Source: a virus. From it: 25,901 nt of DNA. The notes beneath the pieces are model-generated. The model was not told where the DNA came from. It saw only the letters and a program-made list of their open reading frames with translations, and made no database searches. The position numbers and the translations under genes were made by a program. Within the stretch, counting starts at the first letter, position 1. The number at the start of each line of letters is the position of its first letter. The stretch lies in the IMG/VR virus record IMGVR_UViG_3300006128_000052, positions 1 to 25,901 of that record; one strand, written 5' to 3'. Below, piece after piece: positions 5,786 to 25,901 of this stretch.

Positions 5786-5807
5786 AATTCCCCCTATTCC
5801 TACATAC

Positions 5808-5839
5808 ACTAATGCAAAAATAAGGGTATTTACGCCCTA
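5808..5839 (-). terminator. Hairpin plus T-run with GCATTAGT core, copy 1
   Basis: On the minus strand the TAG stop of the 86-aa gene begins AGGG-CGTAAATA-CCCT, then TTATTTTTGCATTAGT. This nearly repeats the element at 12622-12653, including the stop codon inside the stem. It separates the tail-nozzle genes from the acetyltransferase and ejection genes. Probably a weak terminator or processing site. Confidence 0.55.
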
Positions 5840-6097
5840 TCTACGAAGCGGTCCGTTAACTAAATTTGCAAACTCATGCGCCCAATCTTGCCAGCTATCA
5901 TACGTCTGGGGGTCGGGTGTCCCATAGGGCTGGAACGCTGCAGATTGTGCTATTTCTCTGGCGGTAACGTCCCAGTTAGCCTCATCATTAAATGAGATAT
6001 TATTTTGGCTGTAGTACATTACCAGATTTCCATTAAATTCTTCCCAGCTAGAATAGCCCGGTAAAAATGGAAAAAAGGTTTTATTATGGACGCTCAT
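5837..6097 (-). CDS. Small virion-cluster protein of unknown function
   Basis: An 86-aa protein beginning MSVHNKTFFPFLPGYSSWEEF, rich in aromatic residues (Trp, Tyr, Phe) and Asn. It has no membrane segment or catalytic motif. The aromatic content and the DSWQDWAHEFANLV helix suggest a small folded structural or scaffold-like protein. The ATG at 6097 lies 14 bases inside the end of the upstream 721-aa gene; a TTG at 6103 would add two residues and is less likely. The stop codon TAG is part of a small hairpin (see 5808-5839). I do not recognise the family. Being placed between the nozzle-like protein and the acetyltransferase hints at a tail or head-completion role. Confidence 0.7.
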   Translation of the reverse strand: MSVHNKTFFPFLPGYSSWEEFNGNLVMYYSQNNISFNDEANWDVTAREIAQSAAFQPYGTPDPQTYDSWQDWAHEFANLVNGPLRR

Positions 6098-8249
6098 CGC
6101 CAAGCTCTTGGGTAATTAGCAATCTACCCATCTCATAATTACCACCAACTTCATTAGATTCAAACTTTAATCCAACCTCACGATATTCCACACGCAGGTC
6201 AATCTTTTCGGTGGTAGGGTCAAATGGATATGGTCCAGAATCTTCTTCGGTAGATGATGCAAATTTACGACCCATAATGGTCAAATTCATGGTGCCAGAT
6301 TGTAAAAAGTTTGGCTCAATACGACGGATGTGCATACGACGATTTGCGCCCACCTGACTTAATCCAGCGCCGGTGTTGGTAGTACCACCTACCCAGCTAA
6401 TGTCACTGGTGGTGAAGCTAGAATAGATAGCACTTTGCCCAATAAACGAGGTCTCATCGGTACCGGTTTCATGTTGCCAAATTGAATATCCACCTTGGAT
6501 GTAATACACCGATTCACCGATTGTTAAACTAGGTGAAAATTGTGTAGTACATGTCACCAATGTGACGCCAGTTACACCAATCACGGAGTTAGAATAAAAC
6601 TGGCTGCTGGCAATTTGATATACACTATCTTGTGGATAATTAGAAAATGACAAATAGTCGCCGGGGCTAAATGTTGGCGTCTGATCGCCGGCTAAATAAA
6701 ACTGATAATTATTTGGTGCAGGTAAACTTGCAGGATGTGCGATGGTAAAGAATGGTTTACCATAGATTGCCTGATAGTTCCAATCTGCCCATAATGGTGT
6801 TGGGAAGATCTCGGTGGTGTATCCACAAGAACGTTGTGCACCGATTGCCTGACCAGCGTCGTACCAGATCTTATCTTTTACGTTATAGATAATTGCGTCA
6901 GTACATTCTACCGCATTACCACGTGGATAAAAGAACCAGATCTCATTGTATCGTGGCACCTTCGTTGCCCATACCTTTTGGCGCTGTTGTAAGTTAATGT
7001 TGTCAAATAGCCAGTTTACGTTTTTATCATTTGGCACAACAGTAACACGACCGTCATATACATAGAATCGGTCAACGCCCATCCAGTAATACAAGCCGTC
7101 CATCTCAACTGCTGCCTGAGATGACATGATAGAGATTTGGCTAGAAACGATGTCATACGTCCAATAGTTTGGAGATGTTCCATTAAATAGTACACGAATT
7201 AAACTATCTGTAGCCCAGAATAATCCAGCTGGGGAATAAGAGCCGCCACGAATTGGCAGTCCCAGTACCACCTTACCGGTGGCAACGTTTACTTGGTTAG
7301 ATAGTAAACCATTCCAATCTGTTAACGATTGATTTGCGTATATAGAGCTAACGTTATTGTTGGCAATAAATCCGTTGCTACCGTACACAAAAATAAACGG
7401 ATGCAGTACGCATACACCACCACTAACTACAATCGGTTTATAGGTAGGGGCAGTGCCACCAGTATCTGCCAAATTATAAAACTGCCACTGCTCCGAAGAA
7501 TTTGGAATAATCGATCCAATGTATACCGGAGATGGTATAGAGTTATCAATGTTTGTTAAATTTAATCCCGGGTGGGTAACTAAATTTAATGCACCGCCCT
7601 GTGGATTGTATTGATAATCAAACTGCCACAAGTAGTTGTCATTAGGCTGGAAGCTATAGTTATAGATCCATACGTTTGTAATTGCACCGCTATGAGACGC
7701 AGTAAAATTAACTACAGTGTTTGGTGTGGTAAATGTAGAACTGGTTACCGTATATACGGTAGGTGTACCACTTTGTGAGAAGATGATCTTAGTACCGGCA
7801 GGAAACACGCTGGTGTAATCTACCGGAGTGGCGCTGGTACTATTGATGGTAAATGATGTGGTGGTGTATGCACTGATCGTAGTATTTGCTACAGGGAATT
7901 GTGAATACCCCGGCACAAACACCGCACGATATGGTCCAGCACCCACACCAAGAGATTGACCTGATGTAAATATATTTAAGCTGGTTGACGTGCCGGCAAA
8001 GATGTAGTTAACACCATTGTAGCCGTTCATGGTCATGCCACGTAAGACGCCATCAAACGTGCTAAACAGTTCGGTATATCCGCCCATCTTTTTTGGGCGC
8101 ATACGTTGAAAGCGGCACCATACGCCGTCAATACATTCATTGGCGTCAAACTGTGTGCCATCGCGTTTAATACCGGCGGCAATATTTAGCGTATAGATCT
8201 GGCTATACTGCTGTTGAACTGGCGCTTGTTGAGCAGGCGCTACAGCCAT
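6084..8249 (-). CDS. Large beta-rich tail protein, nozzle / gp10-like (DNA stabilisation) candidate
   Basis: A 721-aa protein made mostly of short beta strands with many aromatic residues. Near the N-terminus it has GIKRDGTQFDANECIDGVW followed by CRFQRMRPKKMGGY, then FDGVLRGMTMNGYNG and YIFAGTSTSLNIF. This pattern of 'constructed field, then per-blade readout' is what I associate with beta-propeller tail proteins such as P22 gp10 (packaged-DNA stabilisation) and podovirus nozzle proteins. The C-terminus is charged (FESNEVGGNYEMGRLL). It lies downstream of the adaptor genes and one fibre gene, which fits a tail-nozzle job. The start is coupled to the upstream stop as TAATG. Family-level assignment is moderate; a structural tail role is likely. 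Confidence 0.75.
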   Translation of the reverse strand: MAVAPAQQAPVQQQYSQIYTLNIAAGIKRDGTQFDANECIDGVWCRFQRMRPKKMGGYTELFSTFDGVLRGMTMNGYNGVNYIFAGTSTSLNIFTSGQSLGVGAGPYRAVFVPGYSQFPVANTTISAYTTTSFTINSTSATPVDYTSVFPAGTKIIFSQSGTPTVYTVTSSTFTTPNTVVNFTASHSGAITNVWIYNYSFQPNDNYLWQFDYQYNPQGGALNLVTHPGLNLTNIDNSIPSPVYIGSIIPNSSEQWQFYNLADTGGTAPTYKPIVVSGGVCVLHPFIFVYGSNGFIANNNVSSIYANQSLTDWNGLLSNQVNVATGKVVLGLPIRGGSYSPAGLFWATDSLIRVLFNGTSPNYWTYDIVSSQISIMSSQAAVEMDGLYYWMGVDRFYVYDGRVTVVPNDKNVNWLFDNINLQQRQKVWATKVPRYNEIWFFYPRGNAVECTDAIIYNVKDKIWYDAGQAIGAQRSCGYTTEIFPTPLWADWNYQAIYGKPFFTIAHPASLPAPNNYQFYLAGDQTPTFSPGDYLSFSNYPQDSVYQIASSQFYSNSVIGVTGVTLVTCTTQFSPSLTIGESVYYIQGGYSIWQHETGTDETSFIGQSAIYSSFTTSDISWVGGTTNTGAGLSQVGANRRMHIRRIEPNFLQSGTMNLTIMGRKFASSTEEDSGPYPFDPTTEKIDLRVEYREVGLKFESNEVGGNYEMGRLLITQELGDERP

Positions 8250-13217: not shown

Positions 13218-13667
13218 TTAGGCGGCTTTGCCAGATAAAAATAATGTTGCCTCGGCGTGGCGGCGTTTTAATAGGCCAGCCATCACGTGTCCGCCAGCTT
13301 TGTCCCACTTGAGGAACTCTTCTGCGGCGCCATCTAAATCACCCTCGTTGACCTTTTTGAGTAAAGTAGAATGGTTAAGGTTGCCACAGCCACAGTTAAA
13401 CGCGAAGTCAACCAGCGCATCAAACTCTTCCTGAGTGATGTCGGTGGTAACGTGCGCATTTACATCGGCGGCGGCTTTTTGTACGTCTTGTGCAAGCAGC
13501 GCTTCTGCCTGCTCTTTGGTGATCTCTAGCCCCTGATAGACGTCAGGACCAGTGTGGCCATAGCCAATAGTCCAAGGATCTGCACCAGTGCCGGGATCAG
13601 GATAGGCCTGCAAACGGCAGCCTTCAAATTGTTCAGTAAGGTGTAAACCATCTTTTGAGTATTCCAT
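13218..13667 (-). CDS. GH24 lysozyme (endolysin), lambdoid-type
   Basis: A 149-aa protein with no signal peptide. The catalytic set is Glu15 in EQFEG, Asp24 in AYPDPGTGADPW and Thr33 in WTIGYGHTG, with the extended loop characteristic of the phage 21/P22-type GH24 endolysins. Further family features: LAQDVQKAAADV, FDALVDFAFNCGCGNL and LKRRHAEATLFLSG. It cleaves peptidoglycan and would reach it through a holin if soluble. The start is coupled to the Rz-like gene by TAATG. It is clearly not a copy of the next lysozyme, since loop lengths and N-termini differ, so two muramidases operate in the same lysis region. Confidence 0.93.
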   Translation of the reverse strand: MEYSKDGLHLTEQFEGCRLQAYPDPGTGADPWTIGYGHTGPDVYQGLEITKEQAEALLAQDVQKAAADVNAHVTTDITQEEFDALVDFAFNCGCGNLNHSTLLKKVNEGDLDGAAEEFLKWDKAGGHVMAGLLKRRHAEATLFLSGKAA

Positions 13668-14104
13668 TATTTAGTCCTTAGTGCGTTATATTTTTGTATA
13701 ACATCGTTACGTTCTATTTCTGAGACGGAGCATTGCTTTGCAAGCTCGACAAGAACTTCGACATCTGGTTCAAGTAGTCGGAGTCCTTGACTTGGTATGG
13801 CAGCGGCGGTATTTCCGTCTGCTGATACACCGGAGTGGTGCACCCCGCGATACATATCGACAAGAGTATCGTAGCGATTTTGTAGTTCATCTTTGTCTTT
13901 CTGGGTTTGTTGGGATATGGTGCCCTGTGCCTCAATCACACTATTTTCATGCTCAATTGCTTGGGTGTTGACCTTAGCAATCTTAGCCTCGTAATAGTCA
14001 GAGGTGGCAAACCAGCCACCATAGCCGCCAAGGAGCAACGCTCCGGCTACTAGGTAGGCGGTGGTTGAGCCGCCGGTAAAGAGGGACAGGATGTTGCCGA
14101 ACAT
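13667..14104 (-). CDS. Rz: Inner-membrane spanin (Rz-like)
   Basis: A 145-aa protein with one hydrophobic helix near the N-terminus (about 14-33, TAYLVAGALLLGGYGGWFA) followed by a long periplasmic helix rich in Gln, Lys, Glu and Asp (about 40-90), the layout of i-spanins. These proteins pair with an outer-membrane lipoprotein and fuse the membranes at lysis. The partner is encoded inside this gene in another frame (13714-13890). It stands between the small membrane proteins and the lysozymes and overlaps both as TAATG. The family is highly variable in sequence; I base the call on topology, context and the nested lipoprotein. Confidence 0.8.
   Translation of the reverse strand: MFGNILSLFTGGSTTAYLVAGALLLGGYGGWFATSDYYEAKIAKVNTQAIEHENSVIEAQGTISQQTQKDKDELQNRYDTLVDMYRGVHHSGVSADGNTAAAIPSQGLRLLEPDVEVLVELAKQCSVSEIERNDVIQKYNALRTK
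13714..13890 (-). CDS. Rz1: Outer-membrane spanin lipoprotein (Rz1-like), nested in Rz
   Basis: A 58-aa protein in a different frame, wholly within the Rz-like gene. It starts MNYKIATILLSICIAGC: a short signal peptide and a lipobox (I-A-G then Cys17) for lipid attachment, followed by a Pro-rich segment (TTPVYQQTEIPPLPYQ) and a polar tail. This is the standard form of o-spanins. An in-frame ATG at 13935 would put 15 charged residues before the signal, so I chose the one at 13890, where AGAAAG lies upstream. Nested o-spanins of this kind are known from lambda and relatives. The lipobox plus Pro-rich tail makes the call strong. Confidence 0.88.
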   Translation of the reverse strand: MNYKIATILLSICIAGCTTPVYQQTEIPPLPYQVKDSDYLNQMSKFLSSLQSNAPSQK

Positions 14105-15299: not shown

Positions 15300-15557
15300 T
15301 TATCCTAGTAGTGCGTTAATTTCATCTTGAGTTAAACCGATTGCAGACAGTTTAGCCACTGCAGATTCTTTGTGAGCTGCGGCGGCTTGCTGTGCAGCAA
15401 GTTTGTCAGATTCATCTTGAGCAACTTTAGCGTTTACGGCATCGATGTCATAAACTATTTCATTGCCTTGTGCATCGTAAGCGATATCGCCTACTGTGGT
15501 GGCAACATTAGGATAAAGTTTAATAAGTGCTTGAATTAAATTTGAATTTAAATTCAT
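15300..15557 (-). CDS. Small fibre-module protein, copy B (QGNEI / LSAIGL family)
   Basis: An 85-aa protein with AYDAQGNEIVYD near residue 30, an Ala/Lys/Gln helix, and the end AVAKLSAIGLTQDEINALLG. The 83-aa protein at 18456-18707 has the same plan (FDEQGNEISY, an Ala/Gln helix, AISKLSALGLTDAEIKALTG), so the two are paralogues. Each starts by an ATGA overlap with an LMEIAA-ended protein. Small proteins with such a helix and a GL-x-x-x-EI end often accompany phage fibre genes and may act as assembly chaperones; here that is inference. Last gene of the appendage cassette. Confidence 0.75.
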   Translation of the reverse strand: MNLNSNLIQALIKLYPNVATTVGDIAYDAQGNEIVYDIDAVNAKVAQDESDKLAAQQAAAAHKESAVAKLSAIGLTQDEINALLG

Positions 15558-16060
15558 GCTGCTATCTCCATTAAAGTAATGGTTGAATAATTGTTTGCCA
15601 CAGTATCGTTTTCTTGAACTACAAGAGTAGTATTGCTATCGTATCTTCTTCCTTGTGTTTTATATGTAGTAGAAGATGTTGTTGCTGGACTATCTAAATA
15701 ACAAAGACTAAATACTGCTCGCATATTTGGATTGTTAGTTGTTGTAGAACTAAAATTAAGTGCATAAGGTCCAGTTGAATCTGAAGCGGGAATATAAATA
15801 GCTGTGCTATTTCTTAAAAGCTGTATGCCTGCTGCTACCGTATTAGTAGATGCAGCAGCGGGTATTCTATACGGTTGTGTAATTAAAATTAAAATTTTGC
15901 TATTTGAAAATTGAGGGGTAATACTTGCGGTTAAAGTGGTATCTGTATAAGTATTTGTGTTAATTGCAACTTGAGTAGAAGTTGTAGCATTAACTACTTG
16001 AATCACACTTCCAGACTGGGCTGGTGATACCATTGAGCCCGGTACTTTAGTTAATGACAT
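15554..16060 (-). CDS. Appendage/receptor-binding-type protein ending LMEIAA, copy B
   Basis: A 168-aa, Thr/Ser/Asn-rich beta protein. Its key segments are SGSVIQVVNATTSTQVAI, LTASITPQFSNSKILILI, CYLDSPATTSSTTYKTQ and the end STITLMEIAA. The same segments occur in order in the protein at 18704-19207, so they are paralogues. I recognise this layout from many marine and freshwater phage tail proteins, where it probably forms a small beta-sandwich. It overlaps its neighbours as TAATG and ATGA. The gene is AT-rich compared with the structural genes. Receptor or shaft role is inferred. Confidence 0.8.
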   Translation of the reverse strand: MSLTKVPGSMVSPAQSGSVIQVVNATTSTQVAINTNTYTDTTLTASITPQFSNSKILILITQPYRIPAAASTNTVAAGIQLLRNSTAIYIPASDSTGPYALNFSSTTTNNPNMRAVFSLCYLDSPATTSSTTYKTQGRRYDSNTTLVVQENDTVANNYSTITLMEIAA

Positions 16061-16218
16061 TATGCTGCTCCTTCATCTGCGGGTAGTGGTGTGTTGCCTT
16101 CCTCGACCCATTTGAGGTATTGTTGGTAGTCTGTATTAGCTGGGTCGAATGGGATATAAGTTTTTCCTAAAAATACTCCAATAGCTTGACCTTCAGGATT
16201 ATTGTGTAATTTATACAT
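16060..16218 (-). CDS. Small fibre-associated protein, copy B (YLKW / GNTPLPA family)
   Basis: A 52-aa protein from ATG at 16218 to TAA at 16060. It begins MYKLHNNPEGQAIGVF and contains TYIPFDPANTDYQQYLKWV followed by EEGNTPLPADE. The gene at 19207-19362 has the same plan ([34 protein letters not shown]), which confirms both as real paralogous genes in the same relative position. It starts two bases after the stop of the fibre gene 16221-17300 and overlaps the next gene as TAATG. Short proteins with a P-x-D-x-x-N-x-D-Y-x-x-Y-L-x-W core accompany fibre genes in many phages; a fibre-assembly function is likely but not shown. Confidence 0.85.
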   Translation of the reverse strand: MYKLHNNPEGQAIGVFLGKTYIPFDPANTDYQQYLKWVEEGNTPLPADEGAA

Positions 16219-16220
16219 AA

Positions 16221-17300
16221 TTAAAGTTCCGCACTAAATGTAAAACCTGTTGCATTTGATGGTCCAAATAAATTTGCCGCTACACCAGCAGTTCCACCTG
16301 ATGACCAAGTTGCTGACATATTGATGTTATTTGTAGCAGTTTGTCCGTTTTGCATGGCAAGCCCTGTAACAGTATAGTTACTGCCATTTGATAAATCTTG
16401 TGCAGTGAATGAATTTAAAGTAATACTAGGAGTTGAACGCATGGTAACTTTAAATGGATAACTAAATTGTGCAGCACCGCCAGTTCTGATTCCACCAATA
16501 ATACATTCAGATTGACTTGTTATTCCATTTTGGAAATAGCGTTGGCAAAGAGCCAATTCAGTACCATAGGAACGGAAGTCGAAGTTTGTTGCCGTGGTGC
16601 CTACCTCGAATTGAAGTCCTGTAAGATACCATGTAGAACCTGTTACGGAGTTTAAAGCAACACTTCCAGTAACCCCGTAAAGACCTGAGCCAGCCCATGC
16701 TCCAGCGGTTCCTAAATATGTTGAACCACTTCCGTTATTAAAACAAACAGCAATTCCGCGACCATTGGTCGTTAACCATGTTCCTGATGTGTCACCGGGA
16801 ATAGTTACGCTAACTTGTGTCCAAGTGTTTGCAGAGGAAATTGTATAACTAAATGGATATGAGCGGTTAAATGCGGAATTAAACAATGCCCCACTATGAG
16901 TTCCAGTTATTGAAGATTGAACCCAAAATGAAATAGTTACAGTTTTAGCGTTTGCAGTTCCCCACGCCAAATCAGTACAATTTAGACCTTCAATAAATTG
17001 AATGATATAGCCTTGACCCGAAGCTCCTACAGATATTCCAGTGCCGTTTGTTATTACAAATGAGTTAATAAAACCAGCGGGTGCGGAAGAAGATTGTTGT
17101 CCAGTCGCAGTAGCACCAGTTGCTCTAGAGCAGTAATATCTATCCACTGGGTACGCACCGCTTGCTGCACCGTCTGGTAATGAAACACTAGCACCAGCAT
17201 TACGCTGATCAATAACCATTGCACCATTAATAATGCGGTTCTTGAAGCCTGTCGTGGTGCCGGGGGAGCCTGATGCGGCTAATATTGCTGCAGTGGTCAT
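16221..17300 (-). CDS. Tail fibre receptor-binding-type protein without the usual N-terminal anchor
   Basis: A 359-aa protein. After only 18 residues it enters the [10 protein letters not shown][11 protein letters not shown] block, followed by [34 protein letters not shown] and [15 protein letters not shown], then the family end [27 protein letters not shown] and a distal beta domain finishing FSAEL. This block sequence is a widespread phage fibre domain resembling a carbohydrate-binding jelly roll. The fibre at 19359-20711 has the same blocks but preceded by an MSYIG anchor domain, absent here. The start overlaps the XkdW-like gene as ATGA. Confidence 0.88.
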   Translation of the reverse strand: MTTAAILAASGSPGTTTGFKNRIINGAMVIDQRNAGASVSLPDGAASGAYPVDRYYCSRATGATATGQQSSSAPAGFINSFVITNGTGISVGASGQGYIIQFIEGLNCTDLAWGTANAKTVTISFWVQSSITGTHSGALFNSAFNRSYPFSYTISSANTWTQVSVTIPGDTSGTWLTTNGRGIAVCFNNGSGSTYLGTAGAWAGSGLYGVTGSVALNSVTGSTWYLTGLQFEVGTTATNFDFRSYGTELALCQRYFQNGITSQSECIIGGIRTGGAAQFSYPFKVTMRSTPSITLNSFTAQDLSNGSNYTVTGLAMQNGQTATNNINMSATWSSGGTAGVAANLFGPSNATGFTFSAEL

Positions 17301-17464
17301 TTGAGTTGATCCTCAGTTGGTTTGGCAAGAGTTGGGTGTTCCCACTTGGCAATGTAAGATCCCTTACCGTCGCTGTCATCTTGAACACGAATTGATCCAC
17401 GAACAGGGATAAAATCCTCTTCAGTCAATTGTGGATAAATAGTTTTAATTTTTTCTTGTAACAT
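17297..17464 (-). CDS. Small XkdW-like fibre-associated protein
   Basis: A 55-aa protein from ATG at 17464 to TGA at 17297. It starts MLQEKIKTIYPQLTEEDF, continues VRGSIRVQDDSDGKG and ends YIAKWEHPTLAKPTEDQL. The V-Q-DD-x-DG ... I-x-x-W-x-x-P ... P-T-x-x-x-L plan matches the XkdW group of short phage tail proteins, which sit next to fibre genes. It overlaps the upstream fibre stop as TAATG and the downstream fibre start as ATGA, so it is translated between two fibre proteins. A fibre-assembly or chaperone role is inferred from context. Confidence 0.82.
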   Translation of the reverse strand: MLQEKIKTIYPQLTEEDFIPVRGSIRVQDDSDGKGSYIAKWEHPTLAKPTEDQLK

Positions 17465-18453
17465 TACGCACTCCTAATTAACGCACCTGAAAATATTGAA
17501 GCGTTGCTTCCGCTTTGAATTGTTGTTGATGCGGCAACATATTGATAACATTCAACATAATCAGTTGTGCCGTTCATATAAATGACACCGCTTGCACTTG
17601 TTCCATAGCTTATATTTCCTGATACTTGTGTGCCTTGAATATTTACAAAAGTTCCTGAATTACCGTTTTTCCATACTTGTGTAGCCGCCCCAGTCATTGT
17701 TCCTGTTGATAAAACAGTAACATTAAACTGATAATAACCAGCAACAGTTGGTGTAAAACGATAAGTAGAAGTATTAAAACAAGATGCAGTATCAAATGCT
17801 TTAGTATCAAACGCTATTTTTGTATTTCCACCACTTAATGATTGATTAGTGGACATATAAGCACCAAACGCTGGGCCAGTACCAGCCACACCCGTAGCTA
17901 TATTAGTCTGCTGTACTGCGCCAGTTGCCAAGTAGGTGTTGTTAACAGCGCCCGCTGTTGCTGGGATGGCGTTGATCACTGAGCTAACTTGGAACGATAC
18001 TGTGGTGACAATATCTCCCGCAGTTGCTGCAGAGGTTAGGGTGACTGTGGTGCCGTTGGTGGCGGTGAAGTCGGCTGCTGCCAGCTTTACACCGTTGCGG
18101 TACACATCCAGAAAGCCAGCCACGTAAGATGGTGGTGTAAAGGTTGTCTGACCAGCTGTAGCTGTGAACTCGGTAACTGTACGATAAGCTGTGGTGGTTA
18201 CACCAGACGCTGGGATGCCTAAGTAGCGAGCTGAGATGTTGCCAGTACCGCTTGGAGGTGCAGCGCTAAATGTCAGTGTTGTTCCGCTTACAGAGTATGT
18301 AGATGGATCTTGCAAAACACCTGAGATCGCAACAAGGACGGATGCAGTATTTGCTGGAGCCACCGACATGGTGAACGCAGTCGTTGAACCGTTGCCAGAA
18401 AACTGGTCGGTTACAAACGCCTGATAGACGGGTTGATTACCAATATAGCTCAT
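17464..18453 (-). CDS. Tail fibre with MSYIG anchor and C1q-like tip
   Basis: A 329-aa protein with three parts. Residues 1-84 are an anchor domain (MSYIGNQPVYQAFVTDQFSG, then a TAFTMS strand and LTFSAAPPSGTGNISARYLG) shared with 19359-20711. Residues 85-160 are a second beta domain (FTATAGQTTF, LDVYRNGVKLAAADFTATNG). Residues 192-329 begin GPAFGAYMS and contain TKIAFDTKAFDT and YRFTPTVAGYYQFNV, the pattern of a C1q/TNF-like globular domain often found at fibre tips. GC content falls sharply between part two and the C1q-like part (33 of 60 bases at 18001-18060 against 16 of 60 at 17761-17820), which suggests a swapped tip. It overlaps the next gene as TAATG. Confidence 0.87.
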   Translation of the reverse strand: MSYIGNQPVYQAFVTDQFSGNGSTTAFTMSVAPANTASVLVAISGVLQDPSTYSVSGTTLTFSAAPPSGTGNISARYLGIPASGVTTTAYRTVTEFTATAGQTTFTPPSYVAGFLDVYRNGVKLAAADFTATNGTTVTLTSAATAGDIVTTVSFQVSSVINAIPATAGAVNNTYLATGAVQQTNIATGVAGTGPAFGAYMSTNQSLSGGNTKIAFDTKAFDTASCFNTSTYRFTPTVAGYYQFNVTVLSTGTMTGAATQVWKNGNSGTFVNIQGTQVSGNISYGTSASGVIYMNGTTDYVECYQYVAASTTIQSGSNASIFSGALIRSA

Positions 18454-18455
18454 TG

Positions 18456-18707
18456 TTAGTTTCCTGTTAAGGCTTTAATTTCAGCGTCAGTCAAGCCAAG
18501 TGCTGATAGCTTAGATATAGCTGATTGTTTAGCTGTTGCTTCGGCTTCTTGTTTAGCAGTTTCAGCGGATTGTAATTCTGCTAGTTTAGCTTGTGCGGCA
18601 TTTTTATTGTATGAAATTTCATTACCTTGTTCATCAAAAGCGTCTTCTCCACGAATAACTTTTATAGATGAATTAAGAGCAAATATAGCATCATGTAGAG
18701 TAATCAT
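18456..18707 (-). CDS. Small fibre-module protein, copy A (QGNEI / LSALGL family)
   Basis: An 83-aa protein with AFDEQGNEISYN, an Ala/Gln/Glu-rich helix (SAETAKQEAEATAKQ) and the end AISKLSALGLTDAEIKALTG. It is the paralogue of 15300-15557. The start overlaps the LMEIAA gene as ATGA, the same junction as in the other copy, which supports duplication of the entire unit. Two bases separate its stop from the start of the C1q-like fibre. Possible assembly factor; no catalytic motif. Confidence 0.75.
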   Translation of the reverse strand: MITLHDAIFALNSSIKVIRGEDAFDEQGNEISYNKNAAQAKLAELQSAETAKQEAEATAKQSAISKLSALGLTDAEIKALTGN

Positions 18708-19207
18708 GCTGCAATCTCCATAAGAGTAAGGGTGGAAACAGTATCTCCATTAGAATTTTGATAGTTATTTATAAAAACTGAAGCATTATTTGCTCCACTT
18801 GCAAATTGTAAATAATAAGTAACCGTTGAAGTAGTTGCTGGTGAATCTAACCAATTCATTGCTAAACTTGCTTCTATTTGGGTTGTGTTTTGACTAAAAC
18901 CATAACTTTGGTCAATATTTGTAATAACAGTTGATGAACCATTTACAATTCTAAATTTTCCATAAGTATTATTAGTGGTTTTTCCTGTGCCATTTGCAGT
19001 AACCATTACAAGAATTTTGCTTGTAGAAAATTTAGGAGTAATACTTGCAGATAATCCTGTATTATAAAAAGTAGAAGAAGAAATTGATGCTTGTGTGTTA
19101 AATGATGATTGCACTACTTGAATAACACCGCCTGATTGTGGACTACCAGTAGTTAATATAGTTCCAGAGCTTCCTGCTCCTACGCCTGCGATTGTACTAA
19201 TAGCCAT
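18704..19207 (-). CDS. Appendage/receptor-binding-type protein ending LMEIAA, copy A
   Basis: A 167-aa protein beginning [15 protein letters not shown]. It shares SGGVIQVVQSSFNTQASI, LSASITPKFSTSKILVMV, NWLDSPATTSTVTYYLQ and STLTLMEIAA with 15554-16060, in the same order. A longer frame exists upstream but would overlap the small YLKW-family gene; the ATG at 19207 is coupled to that gene's stop as TAATG, so I use it. The gene is very AT-rich (17 G/C of 60 at 18721-18780). Probably a small beta-sandwich appendage protein. Confidence 0.8.
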   Translation of the reverse strand: MAISTIAGVGAGSSGTILTTGSPQSGGVIQVVQSSFNTQASISSSTFYNTGLSASITPKFSTSKILVMVTANGTGKTTNNTYGKFRIVNGSSTVITNIDQSYGFSQNTTQIEASLAMNWLDSPATTSTVTYYLQFASGANNASVFINNYQNSNGDTVSTLTLMEIAA

Positions 19208-19362
19208 TATGCGTTCTCCGCTGGTAGGGGGGTGTTGCCAACAGCGAGCCACTTAAGGTAGACTTGGTAGTCGGTGTTGTTTGGATCTTTTGGAATTGAA
19301 GCGTTATCCGATAAACGAATAATAAATTCAACACTATCAAATTTTGCTAATTTATACATCAT
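19207..19362 (-). CDS. Small fibre-associated protein, copy A (YLKW / GNTPLPA family)
   Basis: A 51-aa protein with [17 protein letters not shown], then [17 protein letters not shown] and [10 protein letters not shown]. It matches 16060-16218 in plan and position. Its ATG overlaps the fibre stop as ATGA (19359-19362) and its stop overlaps the next ATG as TAATG at 19207. The first of two consecutive ATGs is used because of that overlap; starting at the second would lose one residue. It probably helps fold or assemble the fibre encoded just upstream. Confidence 0.84.
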
Positions 19363-20711
19363 AACTCCGCAGAATATTTAATTAAACCGCCACGCAAAAT
19401 TCCACCATAACCAATAACAACAGTTCCAGCGAGAGTTACTGCTATCATTGCTGAAGATGGACCAGTAGTTGAAGTTAAATTTGTTGGGGCTTGCGAACCT
19501 GCACCATCACGCCAATCAAAGTTACCAAATGGACCTGAAGTAAAAGTTGGGTTGGCACGCATTGTTACTGGAAATTGAGTGTAAGTAACTGCGGTCGTTG
19601 AATTAATAACTCCACCGGCGGATAATCCAACAGAAATACTACCGTCGGTTGAAGCAGTATTTTGATAATAATAGCGTTGGCACAAAGCTAATTCGGTTCC
19701 AATGGAGCGGTAATCGAAAGTCGTTGCCTGTGTGCCTACCTCGAGCTGGACTCCAGTGATGTACCATGTAGCACCAGATGTGCCTACTACGGATGTTGCT
19801 CCTGTTGCCGAGCCATAATTAGCTGCAGCCCATGTACCAGCGGTTCCACTATAAGTTGTTCCTACACCTACAGCAAGATAAATAACAATACCAAGTCCGT
19901 TTGTTGTAAGCCATGTGCCAGCTGTATCGCCGGGAATAGTTACACTAATTTGTTGCCAAGTATTTGCAGAAGAAATTGTATAGGTAAAAGGGTAGCTTCT
20001 GTTTCCGCCAGAGTTTGAAAAAGAACCACCAAAAGTTCCAGTTAATGAACTACGCACCCAAAAAGATAAAGTTACAGTTTTAGCATTTGCTGAACCCCAA
20101 TTAAGATCAGCAATGTTATAACCTTCAATTGGTTGTTGAATAATATAATAATCGCCAGCGCCAAGACTTGTTGCTGCTAATGAAGTTACGCCAAGATAGT
20201 TTGAAAATCCAACTGGCGGAGTTACAGAGCCAGCGTTTTGTTGAATGCTAATTTTACTTGCTTGACTAATATTTGCATTCCATCTATCTAATGTATAAGT
20301 ATTTACAGTAGGAGTAACACTAGCACCAGCATTACGCTGGTCAATTGCCATCGCACCATTAATAATACGGTTCTTAAAACTAATACCCAGCTTAGACTGG
20401 TTGTCGCTGTTCAGTGTGCTGTACGAGACAGTGTTCTGGCTCGGTGTGATTGACTGAGTGGTCGTGGACAAATAGCGAACGTAGATGTTGCTAGAGCCAG
20501 CTGACGGAGCAGAGGTGAACGTAATTGTGTTACCACTGATGTTGTACGCAGTGTTGGGCTGTTGCTCAACGTTATTGATGACTGCCTCAACGTCGTTTAC
20601 GGAGTTGACTCTGCGTGATAAGGTAAACGCAGTAGTTGTTCCGTCGCCGTTGAAGTAGTCAGTACCAGAGATAAACGTCTGGGTTTGGGGGTTTGCACCT
20701 ATATAGGACAT
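19359..20711 (-). CDS. Tail fibre with MSYIG anchor and carbohydrate-binding-like domain
   Basis: A 450-aa protein. Residues 1-85 are the anchor domain ([20 protein letters not shown], a TAFTLS strand, [19 protein letters not shown]), like that of 17464-18453. A polar linker follows, and from residue 112 come the [10 protein letters not shown][11 protein letters not shown] blocks, [45 protein letters not shown] and [16 protein letters not shown], then a distal beta part ending IKYSAEL. GC content is about 52% in the anchor (20401-20460) and about 37-43% in samples from the binding part, again a break at a domain border. It heads the first copy of the four-gene module. Confidence 0.88.
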
Positions 20712-20719
20712 GTTAATCC

Positions 20720-21049
20720 TTAGCTAATTTGTAGGCAAGATAAAATTGCGTCTGCAGAGGTAGCTGCAGAAGATACCACGGTGAATGCGTCACCGGTGTT
20801 CAAAACAATCTTACCGTCTGCACCAAACAGGGCTAACGAGCCACCGACAGGAACTGTAGCGTTGTTAACAACGTAGTAGTTAGTTGCGGAGGCTGTGATG
20901 TATGCGCTCACAGTGATCGGGCTAGATGTTGTGTTAGCCAGTGTCAAACCGATAACGGTTGTCTGTGTTGCAGAAGCAGCAGTAACGAGAACTACTGGTG
21001 TAGTGCCGACGTTCTTTGCTACGTATCGTGTAAATGTATTAGTTGCCAT
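20720..21049 (-). CDS. Small beta-rich virion protein
   Basis: A 109-aa protein rich in Thr, Ala, Val and Ser, starting MATNTFTRYVAKNVGTTPVV. Regular short strands (VIGLTLANTTSSPITVSAYI, VPVGGSLALFGADGKIVLNTGDAFTV) suggest one beta-sandwich domain. Similar short proteins occur in phage fibre clusters, where they may be connectors or decoration subunits. AAGGAA precedes the ATG. The gene sits between the HNH endonuclease and the first MSYIG fibre. No specific function can be read. Confidence 0.75.
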   Translation of the reverse strand: MATNTFTRYVAKNVGTTPVVLVTAASATQTTVIGLTLANTTSSPITVSAYITASATNYYVVNNATVPVGGSLALFGADGKIVLNTGDAFTVVSSAATSADAILSCLQIS

Positions 21050-21063
21050 TTGGGTTCCTTATC

Positions 21064-21489
21064 CTACTTGCAATTTTCTAAATATTGGATTGCTCTTTTT
21101 AATAATCCAATATCATCTCGGAGATTACCAATGCCGGAATTGCAATTGCCGCATAGTAATCCTCTAACTTCACCTGTTTCATGGTCATGATCAACATGAA
21201 ACGCTTTTCTTTTTCCTGTTTCGGTTGTGCCACAAATTGCGCATTGACCGTTTTGAGCTTCTAACATTGTTTGGTATTCTTTGTATCCAATACCGTAAGC
21301 TCGTTTTAATTTTCTATCTTTATCTACTTCATAATCATAAGGGTGTTTATGTTTATGTTCGTGATAACTTTCTCTTTCGTACTCTTTCCTGCATGGAATA
21401 CAATTTGGCCTAACACCATCTTTGTATCCTTTTCCTTTAGGAAATTGATCTAATTCTTTTTCAATATTGCAAGTTTTACAAACCTTCAT
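21064..21489 (-). CDS. HNH endonuclease, recombination endonuclease VII type
   Basis: A 141-aa protein. The N-terminus has a zinc-ribbon-like set C4-x2-C7 and C30-x2-C33. The nuclease domain has C83-x2-C86, FHVDHDHETG (His98, Asp100, His101) and C113-x2-C116-N, preceded by AYGIGYKEYQTMLEAQNGQC. This is the endonuclease VII fold of the HNH/ beta-beta-alpha-metal class, which cuts branched or double-stranded DNA. Here the gene lies alone inside a fibre cassette and is lower in GC than its neighbours, which fits a free-standing homing endonuclease more than a resolvase. Three bases separate it from the upstream stop; its ribosome site (TTAGG) is weak. Confidence 0.9.
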   Translation of the reverse strand: MKVCKTCNIEKELDQFPKGKGYKDGVRPNCIPCRKEYERESYHEHKHKHPYDYEVDKDRKLKRAYGIGYKEYQTMLEAQNGQCAICGTTETGKRKAFHVDHDHETGEVRGLLCGNCNSGIGNLRDDIGLLKRAIQYLENCK

Positions 21490-21492
21490 TAA

Positions 21493-21789
21493 TCAGCCTA
21501 ATGCGATGGACATGGCTGTTGCCGTACCTGCAGGGTCAACTTGTAAATTTGTCTGTGCGCCACTAACTGTAGTAGCTCCTGTACCACCTTGTGCAATTGT
21601 TACTGGCAGTGAGATTACTGAAGATTTTGATGCAATAACCTGAACAGTGCCAGTGTTGTCTTTGTAGTAGAGTTTACCGTCGGTAATGTTGATCGCCAAC
21701 TCACCGTTGACTAAGTTACCAGCAGTTGGAGCATTGGTGGCTGTTGTGCTGTAATACAGCGAGATTGGGGTATATCCTGAAGCTGCCAT
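21493..21789 (-). CDS. Short stub paralogue of the long fibre protein
   Basis: A 98-aa protein that starts MAASGYTPISLYYSTTATNAP and has ELAINITDGKLYYKDNTG, nearly the same as the first 60 residues of the next upstream fibre (21789-23147: MAQSGYTPILIYSSTTASNAP and ELAINVTDGKLYYKDNT). It then has LPVTIAQGGTGATTVSGAQT and stops soon after at AMSIALG. It is a virion-anchor domain with no tip. It could be a genuine short connector or the remnant of a fibre cut by rearrangement near the HNH gene. The ATG overlaps the upstream stop as TAATG. Confidence 0.8.
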   Translation of the reverse strand: MAASGYTPISLYYSTTATNAPTAGNLVNGELAINITDGKLYYKDNTGTVQVIASKSSVISLPVTIAQGGTGATTVSGAQTNLQVDPAGTATAMSIALG

Positions 21790-23147
21790 TAGAATGTTCC
21801 TCCAGCAATGCCGCCGGTGATTGCGTTAGTAGATGAGTTGTAAGTCAAGTTGCTATTTGTCAATACAGGCAAGTTACCGGTGGTTGCTGTTACAAAGGTT
21901 AAGTAGTTAGTTGTTGCCGCACCAGTTGTAATTGCTACGTTACTTGCGTTAGTCGCTGTCGTGGCAGTTGCTGCGTTACCACCAATTGACAAGCCAGCTG
22001 CTGTACCGGTGATGTTAGTACCAACCAACACACTTGGTGTGCCTAAGTTAGGAGTTACTAACGTTGGGCTGGTTGCCAGTACTACGTTACCAGAACCGGT
22101 AGTAGATGTGCTTGAGGCTGCAGTTAACTGACCCTGAGCGTTAACTGTAAAGTTGCCCAGTGTATAGCTACCAGCGGTAACCGCTGTATTGGTGATGCTA
22201 AATGTGTTACCAGATAATGTTAAACCTGTGCCGGCTGTGTATGTACCTGCACCAGAGAACTGTACAAAAGTAACGGCTGTAACACCGAGTGTACCACCCG
22301 GATCTGATGTACATACCCAACCAGTATCTGCCTGAGTATTACCTTCTTCCACAAACACAAACGCTGAAACCAAAGAGTTCCAAGTGTTTGCGTCAGAAGC
22401 ACGGCTCCATGCGCCAGAAGATGATACGTAAATACCGTTATTGGCTTGAGTGGTTTGGTTCTTAACCAAGACACGGCTAGATGATGTAGTAATACCATCA
22501 ATCGTCTGCTCACCAGATAGTGTAATGTTTGCTGTAGTTGCAACCAATACTGGGGCTTTAGGAGACAGGCCAGTTGCTACAGAGTCAACGTACTGTTTGG
22601 TTGCTAACTGTAATGCGCTGGTTGGGTCTTGTGTTACGGTAACGCTGGTCAAGCCAGCTAATGTAAGTGATGTGCTACCCAACGAGATACCAGTGGTACC
22701 AATGGTGATTGAGCTGTTTGCCAACTGGCCGTTACTAATCGTGCCACTCAAAGCACTCGTAGGAATTGTTGTAGAGGCCGTAGCGGCGCCTGCACCGTTG
22801 CCGTATAGGTAACCAGTCAGACCACCAACAGAAAGGCTGTTAAGGGTCGCTAAACCGCTTGAAGATAGTGTAGTAAACGCACCAGCTGCTGGAGTTGATC
22901 CACCGATTGCTGTGCCGTTAATTGTACCGCCAGTAATTGTTACCGAGCTAAATGTACCCGCTGCAGCGCTTTTAGAGGCAATAACTTGAACAGCGTTGGT
23001 ATTGTCTTTGTAATACAGCTTACCGTCAGTAACGTTAATCGCCAGCTCGGAACCGGAGGAGCTATTGGTAAGGTTAGCCGCAGACGGCGCATTAGACGCT
23101 GTCGTGGAACTGTATATTAGTATGGGGGTATAGCCTGACTGTGCCAT
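21789..23147 (-). CDS. Long tail fibre protein
   Basis: A 452-aa protein. Residues 1-58 are an anchor (SGYTPILIYSSTTASNAP, ELAINVTDGKLYYKD). Then come a TITGGTINGTAIGGSTPAAGAF motif and, in the middle, ATKQYVDSVATGLSPKAPV, TIDGITTSSSRVLVKNQTT, NNGIYVSSSGAWSRASDANT and EEGNTQADTGWVC, a domain common to phage fibres. A final Gly/Thr/Asn-rich shaft has GTGLTLSGNTFSI and TLGNFTVNAQGQLTAASS and ends GGIAGGTF. The C-terminal GG-x-F is shared with 8249-9520 and 23157-23720. Probably a trimeric fibre shaft; receptor unknown. Confidence 0.87.
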   Translation of the reverse strand: MAQSGYTPILIYSSTTASNAPSAANLTNSSSGSELAINVTDGKLYYKDNTNAVQVIASKSAAAGTFSSVTITGGTINGTAIGGSTPAAGAFTTLSSSGLATLNSLSVGGLTGYLYGNGAGAATASTTIPTSALSGTISNGQLANSSITIGTTGISLGSTSLTLAGLTSVTVTQDPTSALQLATKQYVDSVATGLSPKAPVLVATTANITLSGEQTIDGITTSSSRVLVKNQTTQANNGIYVSSSGAWSRASDANTWNSLVSAFVFVEEGNTQADTGWVCTSDPGGTLGVTAVTFVQFSGAGTYTAGTGLTLSGNTFSITNTAVTAGSYTLGNFTVNAQGQLTAASSTSTTGSGNVVLATSPTLVTPNLGTPSVLVGTNITGTAAGLSIGGNAATATTATNASNVAITTGAATTNYLTFVTATTGNLPVLTNSNLTYNSSTNAITGGIAGGTF

Positions 23148-23156
23148 GTATTTACC

Positions 23157-23720
23157 TTAAAATATTCCGCCGCCGATACCGGTGGTGGCTGTAACGATTG
23201 GAGTTGTTAGCGTACCAGCTCCGGGATTAAACTGTAATTGGGTTGATGCTACGTACTCTGTTGTGGGTGTGCCACTGGTTAAATCTGTAAACAACGGAAA
23301 ACGAGTAGCATTGGTGCTATTGTCGTTTGTAATTGTCAAACTGGTGCCCGCTGGCCCGGGTGGGCCTACGGGACCTTGCGGACCTGTTGGGCCCTGTGGA
23401 CCCTGCGGACCAATAACGTTACCACAATCGGTAGTAGCACCCGTGGTGCTGGTTAAAATTAAATGACCGGCACCGTTAATTGTTGCAGACACATAGCCGG
23501 GTATTGGTCCGACGGTAGAGGTTGTGCCATCGCTGTAATAAAATACTAAATCATTTGCGTAATTTAATATTACGTTGGTAATTAACTTACCGGGCGATAT
23601 AGCATTAGCAATCTGTGATACAGATGTCTGCTTGGTAACTCCATTTTGTACAACTACCGTCTGCTCTGCACCGGTGATGGTGGTTGCTACGGGTAGTTGG
23701 GTTATCGACTGATCTGCCAT
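23157..23720 (-). CDS. Fibre protein with collagen-like repeat
   Basis: A 187-aa protein. The N-terminal region begins MADQSITQLPVATTITGAEQ, a form typical of phage fibre and collagen-type proteins. Seven G-x-y triplets follow at 104-125 (GPQ, GPQ, GPT, GPQ, GPV, GPP, GPA), which would form a short collagen-like triple helix. The C-terminal 50 residues include a TLTTPIVTATTGIGGGIF end that shares the GG-x-F terminus with two other fibre genes. It stands one gene upstream of the long fibre; a trimeric fibre or connector is likely. Confidence 0.85.
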   Translation of the reverse strand: MADQSITQLPVATTITGAEQTVVVQNGVTKQTSVSQIANAISPGKLITNVILNYANDLVFYYSDGTTSTVGPIPGYVSATINGAGHLILTSTTGATTDCGNVIGPQGPQGPTGPQGPVGPPGPAGTSLTITNDNSTNATRFPLFTDLTSGTPTTEYVASTQLQFNPGAGTLTTPIVTATTGIGGGIF

Positions 23721-23723
23721 GTT

Positions 23724-24341
23724 TTATGTATATGTAAATGCACCATGAGCGGTGGCAGTTCCAAATGGAGATACTACAGTCAGGTCAACAATACCGGTAA
23801 CCGCATACGCTGGAGTTACTGCAGTAATTTGTGTGGAATTAACCAATGTAAATGTTGTGATAACTCCGCCAATTTTTACCGTATTAACGTCTGTAAAGTT
23901 TTCACCATTAATAACGATCGGTGTACCGCCAGCTTGTGGTCCAGTATTCGGTGTGATGGTTCCAACGTATGGGAACAATGTCATCGGTGAATATGGTTGG
24001 TTACTCATGGTATTCAAGTCGCCCTGAGTATTGCCCGCTGGTACGCCAGTAATAAATACTGAGTTTTGATTTTGGAAACCATTCTCAGTTAAAATCTCAT
24101 TGCCACCAATTGGCCCCGTTGCCACAGAGGTATCTGGGCGTGGGAATCTTAGTGCAATATTTTCGGTCTGTAGTGCAGGTAAACGCCATGGATCAAAGTT
24201 ATCCAAGTCGTCCTTACATACGCGCATGCCCGGAAAGTTTGGATCGGGCATTAAATCTACATACGCGAATTTCCTACTGCAGCGATCACAGATCGCCACA
24301 GATAGGACAGAATTACCTCGCGTATCAAGATATACCGGCAT
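23724..24341 (-). CDS. Virion protein with Cys motif and IPT/TIG domain
   Basis: A 205-aa protein of two parts. Residues 15-60 have ICDRCSRKFAYVDL, then FPGMRVCKDDLDNFDPWRLPA, a pattern I know from phage structural proteins that carry a zinc-binding CxxC...CxxC; here only three Cys remain (18, 21, 42) and the fourth position is Asp45. A Pro/Asn-rich linker follows. Residues 124-205 form an IPT/TIG immunoglobulin-like domain (GTITPNTGPQAGGTPIVING, FTDVNTVKIGG, VTPAYAVTG, VDLTVVSPFGTA), common in adhesion and tail proteins. Likely a head or tail decoration protein that may bind surface sugars or the cell. Confidence 0.85.
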   Translation of the reverse strand: MPVYLDTRGNSVLSVAICDRCSRKFAYVDLMPDPNFPGMRVCKDDLDNFDPWRLPALQTENIALRFPRPDTSVATGPIGGNEILTENGFQNQNSVFITGVPAGNTQGDLNTMSNQPYSPMTLFPYVGTITPNTGPQAGGTPIVINGENFTDVNTVKIGGVITTFTLVNSTQITAVTPAYAVTGIVDLTVVSPFGTATAHGAFTYT

Positions 24342-24350
24342 GTAACTGCC

Positions 24351-25187
24351 TTACGCTGACTGACCGTCGTTCTTGATTAAGTATCCACCAGCAAACAAAC
24401 CGGCGCTAAATGGTGAACCAGTGTTTGCTTTAACTTGAAACTGAATATCTGTTCCGCCGGTGTGAGCTAATGGAATAATGTACGGAATATTTAATGTTTG
24501 AACAAACGGTGATTGGCTTAATAGTGTGCTATTACCACCGTAGTTGATAATGTATCCGTTTTGATTATCGCCAGTGACTGAATTGTTAAACTTGTTATAT
24601 TCAGAGAAGATCATGTAGTTGCTTGAAGTAAAGCCAATACTAGAATCTGCTTGAACATAAGTTAAATAGAATGTGTAACCGTTTGGAACGGTGTACAAAG
24701 ACATTTGAGTTTGACCAATACCAGCGTTGATCTGAGCATACAAGTTAGTACTGTTTTTGCAAGTGATTGTACCTGCGTTAATGCCGTTGGTGATGTACAA
24801 ACCATTAATACGAAAGTATGAGTTTACAGTTGTTACACCAGTTGTGCCGGTTAATACAACATACTCAGATAACAAATTATAATTGGCGTCTAAGCCTTGT
24901 ACCTGAACAGTTTGTGTATCTGCGTTGTTGGTAGATACTAAGGTCATCTGCAATGCAGAGCCCGGATAAACATAGTTGCCACCAGAAGAAGTCAAACCTT
25001 CCCAAAGTGGGCCAAGTGCTGTAGAACCAACCGCTGCGCTGTAACCAAAGATTTGAACGTTAGTATGGCCTGCAATTTGTGTGCGACCAACTTGGAGATC
25101 AAACGGCTCATATGCGCCCTGTACTGTAACAGAAGGCATTACAGCTGGTTGCTGTATTACTAAGTTTGTTTTTAAATTCGATGCCAT
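24351..25187 (-). CDS. Beta-rich virion structural protein
   Basis: A 278-aa protein beginning MASNLKTNLVIQQPAVMPSVTV. It is rich in Asn, Thr, Gly, Val and Tyr with regular strands (QALDANYN-type QVQGLDANYNLLSEYVV, FYLTYVQADSSIGFTSSNY) and an end IQFQVKANTGSPF...GYLI. No enzyme motif is visible. I set the start at the ATG with AAGGAAA upstream; an in-frame TTG farther up would cross the hairpin at 25211-25230. It follows a hairpin-terminated gene, so it may be less expressed than its neighbour. Capsid-associated or tail role unclear. Confidence 0.8.
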   Translation of the reverse strand: MASNLKTNLVIQQPAVMPSVTVQGAYEPFDLQVGRTQIAGHTNVQIFGYSAAVGSTALGPLWEGLTSSGGNYVYPGSALQMTLVSTNNADTQTVQVQGLDANYNLLSEYVVLTGTTGVTTVNSYFRINGLYITNGINAGTITCKNSTNLYAQINAGIGQTQMSLYTVPNGYTFYLTYVQADSSIGFTSSNYMIFSEYNKFNNSVTGDNQNGYIINYGGNSTLLSQSPFVQTLNIPYIIPLAHTGGTDIQFQVKANTGSPFSAGLFAGGYLIKNDGQSA

Positions 25188-25210
25188 AATTAATTTCCTT
25201 AAAGTTAAAG

Positions 25211-25230
25211 TAGGGGACCGAAGCCCCCTA
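25211..25230 (-). terminator. UUCG-loop hairpin after the 188-aa virion gene
   Basis: On the minus strand TAGGGGGC-TTCG-GTCCCCTA folds into an eight-pair stem (one G-U pair) closed by a UUCG tetraloop, nine bases past the TAA at 25240. The downstream bases are CTTTAACTTT, a weak T-rich tract. It can act as a leaky terminator or as an RNA-stabilising 3' end that lets the following genes be read at a lower level. Confidence 0.7.
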
Positions 25231-25239
25231 GGCAATTAA

Positions 25240-25806
25240 TTATTGATTTGTTAAACCAGCACCGTATGGAGTCAATGAACCGTCAACGTTACGTGCTACG
25301 TAGTCAACCTTCAAAGAACCTGCCAAGTTGCCGGTGATTGTTGCACCAGAAGCAAATGCGTAGGTAATAGAAGCGTCTAATGTGCCAACGTTGTTGAGCA
25401 ATGCTGCAACAGCTGCAGTATTAGTAAACGCGATCTGGATCTGACCACCAGTTGTAGTTGGGGTGATTGTACCAATTGCTGTGGTAGTAACCGCACCAGT
25501 TGTTGGGTTAGTTACGTTGATGTATGCAGTGATTACGCCGTTGGTAAGTGCTGAAGGAGCTGTGTACTCGTACAATGTAATATTGTCGATGATAGAACCA
25601 GCTGGAACTACGCAGTTAGATGCGGTAGTAGAGCCAACGTTGTACACAGTAACTGCAGTTGTAGAAGCTACAGTACCAGTGATGTTGTTGAAGTATTGGA
25701 TTTGGCTAACTTGTGCTGCGCCAGTGTTGTCTGGAGCGATTACGCCGTTGTTTGTTGGGTTGTTACGCTTAAAAATGCGTAATGGGCCTGTGAATGTACT
25801 AGACAT
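25240..25806 (-). CDS. Thr/Ala-rich virion protein, capsid-decoration candidate
   Basis: A 188-aa protein, MSSTFTGPLRIFKRNNPTNNG at the start, with Thr, Ala, Val and Asn making up most of it and short strands all along (TAVTVYNVGSTTASNC, DNITLYEYTAP, GVITAYINVTNPTTGAV). There are no membrane segments or catalytic motifs. It is bordered by a hairpin before the ribosome site (25821-25849) and a UUCG hairpin after its stop (25211-25230), as expected for a highly expressed structural gene. Decoration or minor capsid protein is inferred. AAGGAA sits before the ATG. Confidence 0.8.
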   Translation of the reverse strand: MSSTFTGPLRIFKRNNPTNNGVIAPDNTGAAQVSQIQYFNNITGTVASTTAVTVYNVGSTTASNCVVPAGSIIDNITLYEYTAPSALTNGVITAYINVTNPTTGAVTTTAIGTITPTTTGGQIQIAFTNTAAVAALLNNVGTLDASITYAFASGATITGNLAGSLKVDYVARNVDGSLTPYGAGLTNQ

Positions 25807-25820
25807 GTGTATTCCTTAAT

Positions 25821-25849
25821 CTCAGTGGGTATCCCAAGCTGTCTCTGAG
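25821..25849 (-). promoter_or_regulatory. Inverted repeat in the leader of the 188-aa virion gene
   Basis: The minus strand carries CTCAG ... CTGAG as outer arms with an inner TGGG-ATA-CCCA hairpin, just before AAGGAA and the ATG at 25806. It may end transcription of the upstream gene in part, or protect the 5' end of the message. No T-run follows, so a true terminator is doubtful. Confidence 0.5.
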
Positions 25850-25852
25850 TCG

Positions 25853-25901
25853 TCACTGCCGGGAAGGATCGGCGGTCAGAATGGGACAAATCTTCCTATA
25901 C
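25853..25901 (-). CDS. Possible 3' end of an upstream gene
   Basis: In one frame the right edge reads YRKICPILTADPSRQ and then TGA at 25853-25855. The other two frames stop sooner, within 8 codons. Only 15 residues are visible, so the gene cannot be identified; the open frame may be chance. Confidence 0.3.
   Translation of the reverse strand, partial: YRKICPILTADPSRQ

Follow-up and report, generated by a model that had tools for sequence, protein, structure and literature searches.

Two-gene adhesin cassettes with probable chaperone-like partners and exchangeable tips in the fibre array of an aquatic tailed phage

Introduction

The closest described counterparts of the locus studied here are the Tfa pairs (lambda Stf–Tfa, Mu S–U and Pam3 gp24–gp25), in which a small assembly gene, with a variable N-terminal and a conserved C-terminal part, lies directly behind the fibre gene (PMC9608196). 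In Pam3 gp25 the variable N-domain binds the fibre, which has a TNF (tumour necrosis factor)-like domain, while the conserved C-domain trimerises; gp25 itself is not detected in virions (PMC9608196). TfaMu is retained on its fibre, and such chaperones can act as caps (PMC10579305). In the Alteromonas phages V22/A5 a host-recognition module and its cognate chaperone are exchanged between unrelated phages, a single pair per phage and described as whole-gene transfer (PMC10579305). Fibre–chaperone pairs, their mosaic exchange and hypervariable host-recognition islands in aquatic phages are thus already known (PMC10579305, PMC9608196, PMC3909814). Here we analyse the adhesin array at positions 15300–20711 of a 25,901-nucleotide viral DNA stretch, positions 1 to 25,901 of IMG/VR record IMGVR_UViG_3300006128_000052 (hereafter the window). 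It is very probably a series of five two-gene adhesin cassettes of an aquatic tailed phage, with chaperone-like partners and with tips swapped by recombination.

The array resembles the Tfa pairs in gene order and partner layout, in that some homologues of two of its partner families (SMA and QGN) carry a Caudo_TAP or PF16778 C-domain, and in that the TNF-like domain of Pam3 gp24 has a counterpart in the TNF-like fold of one adhesin type (LME). It differs in having three unrelated partner families of 51–85 amino acids (aa), with the APC domain absent in the window, and five cassettes in series instead of one or two. Unlike the V22/A5 case, the exchange boundaries considered here fall within the putative chaperone gene. 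Variable genes of metaviromic islands of marine phages include C1q, carbohydrate-binding and lectin-like adhesins, XkdW and tail fibre assembly genes; in the portion of that account drawn on here XkdW is called ‘unknown’ and no adhesin–partner pairing is described (PMC3909814). In the window the C1q fibre is paired with a 55-aa member of the XkdW family (PF09636), in the context of which mutants of Bacillus phage Sam46 change plaque type (PMC8190038). A strict three-way pairing rule, an array grammar and a boundary inside the chaperone gene were not found in the literature searched, outside which subscription journals mostly fall, and a search for tandem fibre–chaperone cassettes gave no direct description.

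Results

Adhesins and small partners pair by type

Profiles for three adhesins (FIB, LME and C1q), an N-terminal anchor and three partners (SMA, QGN and XkdW) were run on 291 sequences, comprising the window, loci from four independent queries and a few isolates. SMA is directly preceded by FIB in 124 of 126 instances, QGN by LME in 92 of 101 and XkdW by C1q in 55 of 58. Wherever the upstream adhesin was recognised, the partner is of its type (273/273, against a permuted mean of 100), which bears out the original prediction that the small partners are specific to their fibres; the small genes stay beside fibre genes and do not occur away from them, as the original proposal required. All 15 loci that SMA retrieved from bacterial genome records, spread over several phyla, have the FIB–SMA pair; in one (L301), an exception of detail, the SMA frame was called too long and its SMA part begins directly after the FIB open reading frame (ORF). 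Isolates with these pairs are the Methylophilales phages MEP402 and MEP301, Pelagibacter phage Hodr, Limnohabitans phage DC33 (LME–QGN) and Synechococcus phage RN05-S, whose QGN homologue is annotated ‘tail assembly chaperone protein’.

The true unit is a two-gene cassette, an adhesin with its own small partner (FIB+SMA, LME+QGN or C1q+XkdW), and the order of cassettes varies freely among relatives. The arrays seen include LME–QGN–C1q–XkdW–FIB–SMA, FIB–SMA–FIB–SMA, LME–QGN–LME–QGN–FIB–SMA and C1q–XkdW–C1q–XkdW–FIB–SMA. The four-gene copied unit that had been proposed, FIB–SMA–LME–QGN, does not survive this comparison: of the genes directly behind SMA only 22 of 121 are LME (FIB 8, C1q 6, anchor genes 5, other 80), and SMA stands before LME in just 19 of 130. 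From the own-type pairing and the variable order we read the window as [anchor-FIB, SMA] [LME, QGN] [anchor-C1q, XkdW] [FIB, SMA] [LME, QGN], five cassettes of three types (Table 1). What had been taken for an extra fibre is a real gene, and is the adhesin of the C1q–XkdW cassette; its partner had been overlooked.

Behind other fibres or LME genes stand additional candidate partner families of 85, 119 and about 118 aa (L190:4343-5146, L117:1729-1986, L058:18503-18862, L004:20622-20828), and the cassette grammar probably has more than three partner types. Four tandem LME genes with QGN partners absent were also seen (Pelagibacter phage Lederberg, L085:2-2062).

Exchange boundaries lie inside the partner genes

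Boundaries were read from codon-level identities in three natural comparisons, with the loci L003, L087 and L190. L003 is a sibling phage, 94.8% identical in DNA over 21497–25901 and 94.9% over 20461–21066. Within the array its identity is confined to islands (Table 1). In the island that spans the SMA_B/LME_B junction, the SMA_B C-half is 100% and the LME_B start 95% identical in nucleotides (nt), and the cores on either side are replaced: the SMA_B N-half falls to 53% and the LME domain to 55%. FIB_B between its islands is at 50% in the core and 47% in the tip. The C1q anchor is 87% identical and the C1q domain 55%; in XkdW the last 15 codons are 100% identical, while the first 40 have diverged (N-part 68%).

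The other two comparisons give the complementary picture. L087 shares the FIB_B tip (96% aa, 91% nt) and the SMA_B N-half (92% aa, 88.5% nt); not shared are the FIB core (59%) and the SMA C-half (71%), and its LME is also different. L190 shares the LME_A domain (97% aa, 94% nt) and QGN_A residues 1–48 (90% aa), with the LME N-linker at 41%, the QGN_A C-part at 58% and no FIB–SMA before it. These identities place the exchange boundaries inside the partner gene: the tip travels with the N-half of the partner, and the C-half stays.

Signals across the families point the same way. All 15 phage pairs whose SMA C-halves are at least 93% nt identical have tips less than 40% identical. The SMA N-half has a third-position GC of 0.24 and the C-half one of 0.45, with 0.49 expected for both, and the direction is the same in 100 of 107 (p 3e-18); in this the N-half resembles the tip, whose third positions are AT-rich, and the C-half differs from it. 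Tip similarity correlates with that of the SMA N-half (r 0.10, p 0.002) and not with that of the C-half (r -0.006, p 0.57), and C1q similarity with the XkdW N-part (r 0.21, p 0.008) against 0.02 for the C-part. The Tfa-like layout, a gene behind the fibre with a variable, tip-matched N-part and a conserved C-part, is thus found in this locus, and the N/C split is clearest in SMA.

Identity of the partners

The 55-aa partner in cassette 3 matches PF09636 with 30.6 bits against a gathering score of 24.6, and its profile also matches 2hg7, the XkdW of B. subtilis. Fusions in longer homologues join the SMA module to Caudo_TAP PF02413 (E 4e-7) or PF16778 (1e-10) and the QGN module to PF16778 (1e-16); each of these domain matches passes its Pfam cut-off. 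Matches of QGN homologues to PA28_C and AIG2_2 fell under the cut-off and were judged to be chance. A search for homology among the partner families found nothing between SMA and either QGN or XkdW; between QGN and XkdW there is just a 17-column N-terminal similarity, at 24% probability.

In our assessment the partners are probably short Tfa-like fibre-assembly chaperones with specificity in the N-half, because they share with the Tfa class, as represented by Pam3 gp25, the place of the gene and the variable-N/conserved-C layout, and because homologues are fused to Caudo_TAP/APC domains. The partners would thus have chaperone activity, and their N-halves would contact the tip. Alternatively, they could be structural distal tip or cap proteins, similar to gp38 adhesins, that remain on the fibre and aid host binding. 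The variable N-half that tracks the tip would suit such a role, as would the retention of TfaMu on its fibre and the capping function that chaperones may have. We consider this unlikely: Pam3 gp25 is undetected in virions, and the small size, the conserved C-half and the Caudo_TAP/PF16778 fusions fit assembly factors.

Predicted folds of the adhesins

The AlphaFold2 model of LME (predicted local distance difference test score, pLDDT, 85.6) is a TNF-like jelly roll. It is nearest to bacterial TNF-like lectins, namely the N-domain of BC2L-C (template-modelling score, TM, 0.75 by target length) and Photorhabdus PLTL (E 3e-6), and the LME profile matches the C-terminal tip of the solved phage fibre 9efk, present in 18 chains; a literature search on that fibre found no direct description. 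FIB has no Pfam match, and its model aligns with single CBM4 and CBM11 (carbohydrate-binding module) domains (E 5e-6 to 2e-5, TM 0.55–0.60 by target length), so that its core may be a CBM4/CBM11-like β-sandwich. The C1q domain of cassette 3 is a Pfam match (PF00386, 30.5 bits against a gathering score of 23.7). Because of the LME and FIB models and the C1q match, the array is predicted to carry three tip types that bind carbohydrate or protein. The adhesins would be present on the virion and would affect host range.

The N-terminal anchor of the cassette 1 fibre (MSYIG..., phrog_18673) is common to the cassette 3 adhesin and absent from FIB_B, which begins directly at the FIB domain. Of the conserved island at the start of FIB_B (17181–17300), 63 nt recur at 20316–20378 with 90% identity. 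Among anchorless adhesins the N-terminal segments recur across types: 142 of 268 match a segment that stands before a different type, mostly LME with C1q. This suggests a common docking or shaft piece that would itself be interchangeable.

The two copies of FIB–SMA and LME–QGN

The first two and the last two cassettes (copies A and B) had been described as four matching genes in the same order, strongly diverged. The gene coordinates and the order are correct; all ten array genes are minus-strand ORFs, and the junctions TAATG (SMA/LME) and ATGA (LME/QGN) are found in both copies, as had been noted. The four pairs are homologous at 40–52% identity: FIB 157/299 (52%, z 60), SMA 25/48 (52%, z 23), LME 57/143 (40%, z 21) and QGN 36/79 (46%, z 23), with 0 of 1000 shuffles as good for each. 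The supposed match of the two AEL-ended fibres holds for the FIB domain, to which their similarity is confined, and not for the anchored N-terminus of the copy A fibre.

The shared order and junctions, and a comparable double arrangement in L195, are what an ancient tandem duplication of a four-gene adsorption module, with a fibre inserted later, would leave. We regard this history as very improbable; gene order, the trees and the comparisons with L003, L087 and L190 led us to reject a four-gene duplication. FIB–SMA and LME–QGN are found apart and in any order. In the four trees copies A and B fall in the same families, not in unrelated ones, and are nowhere each other's nearest relatives; the trees rest on short alignments with low support and are used solely as missing evidence for block duplication. 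In L003 the fibre before LME–QGN in position A is non-FIB and SMA is absent, and in L190 the 97%-identical LME_A domain and the N-part of QGN_A stand in another context. A programmed host-range switch between two fibre options, by an invertible segment or a diversity-generating retroelement, might be suggested by the two versions of two cassettes in one genome, and is highly improbable, given that the genes are all on one strand, that the inter-copy repeats are direct and include no inverted pair that could serve for inversion, and that neither a recombinase nor a reverse transcriptase turned up in the genes examined, a part of the ORFs of a window that is itself a fragment.

Endonucleases at cassette joints and other genes of the window

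The array of two-gene cassettes is bordered by an endonuclease VII/HNH gene that is a recent mobile insertion or loss (Table 1). Among relatives, 37 distinct HNH genes (e.g. L003:8976-9473, L008:12336-13007) stand at cassette joints, in the order partner, HNH, next adhesin, and none was found between an adhesin and its own partner among the loci examined. HNH genes were detected by two clustered families and motif patterns, with representatives confirmed by Pfam. They could conceivably drive cassette exchange.

Elsewhere in the window there are two adjacent phage lysozyme genes (PF00959; 12651–13184 and 13218–13667), a small lipoprotein-like ORF (13714–13935) in another frame inside 13667–14104, Rz/Rz1 spanin-like by inspection, and a GNAT acetyltransferase-like gene (5333–5809, slightly below the Pfam cut-off) amid structural genes. 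The gene at 6084–8249 is related to a ‘phage stabilization protein’ and to structural proteins of Caulobacter phages, a hint of a podovirus-type tail.

Table 1 Features of the array and its surroundings, and islands conserved with the sibling L003
Feature	Position	Strand	Description
Cassette 1 adhesin, 450 aa	19359..20711	-	Anchor (residues 1 to about 95) + FIB (putatively CBM4-like) domain + variable tip; FIB fold taken from copy B model
Cassette 1 partner SMA_A, 51 aa	19207..19362	-	N-half AT-rich, variable; C-half GC-richer, conserved (NTDYQxYLKW..GNTPLPA)
Cassette 2 adhesin LME_A, 167 aa	18704..19207	-	Predicted TNF-like lectin type; fold from copy B model
Cassette 2 partner QGN_A, 83 aa	18456..18707	-	
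Cassette 3 adhesin	17464..18453	-	Anchor + C1q domain (PF00386)
Cassette 3 partner, 55 aa	17297..17464	-	XkdW family (PF09636)
Cassette 4 adhesin FIB_B, 359 aa	16221..17300	-	Putative CBM4-like domain + tip; anchor absent
Cassette 4 partner SMA_B, 52 aa	16060..16218	-	
Cassette 5 adhesin LME_B, 168 aa	15554..16060	-	Modelled as TNF-like jelly roll
Cassette 5 partner QGN_B, 85 aa	15300..15557	-	
Endonuclease VII/HNH gene	21064..21489	-	PF02945, E 5e-30; left (upstream) edge of array; absent at same site in L003
Conserved DNA island	15999..16137	-	97.1% to L003; SMA_B C-half + LME_B N-terminus; cores either side replaced
Conserved island	16529..16624	-	86.5% to L003; [24 protein letters not shown] (ELALCQRY), between FIB core and tip
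Conserved island	17181..17300	-	95% to L003; FIB_B start

Discussion

A mechanism can be proposed from these comparisons. Each cassette encodes a predicted host-binding protein and then a type-specific partner of 50–90 aa, usually with overlapping start and stop codons. The partner would work like the Tfa/Pam3 gp25 chaperones, its variable N-half recognising the trimeric tip of the protein encoded before it, and its conserved C-half serving a generic task such as trimerisation or release. Cassettes undergo gain, loss and reordering. Recombination between conserved islands would exchange the tips, with one site at ELALCQRY or where the adhesin domain begins and the other inside the partner gene, so that an incoming tip would bring the matching half of its chaperone. 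More tentatively, the chaperone genes may double as recombination joints in a widespread, non-inverting adhesin array, with HNH homing endonucleases perhaps driving the exchange. The DNA of the partner's conserved C-half and of the next adhesin's start would then be a landing site at which any tip could be exchanged together with the matching half of its chaperone.

Several observations weigh against this account. The SMA and QGN proteins of the window (P0002, P0004, P0008 and P0010) have no Pfam or NCBIfam match, Caudo_TAP PF02413 and Phage_tail_APC PF16778 included, and their link to chaperones depends on fused homologues in other genomes. A partner is not always required, since some marine phages (Lederberg, L085) have tandem LME genes without QGN. 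The correlations between tip and partner N-half are small, because most pairs are saturated. Every part of QGN correlates with LME, so that the N/C split of QGN rests mainly on the L190 case, and a composition step in XkdW was looked for family-wide and not found. Finally, the cassette view leaves the virion attachment of the anchorless adhesins unexplained.

The swap of a tip with the front half of its partner would explain how attachment can change without broken assembly, and two putative host ranges for this phage, as originally predicted, are plausible. The cassette rule makes readable the region that varies most in many genomes of aquatic phages: it allows ‘hypothetical’ genes of 50–90 aa to be assigned to an adhesin, the limits of tip domains to be set and swap boundaries to be predicted. 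The host-recognition genes of uncultured phages would thereby become testable as short two-gene cassettes.

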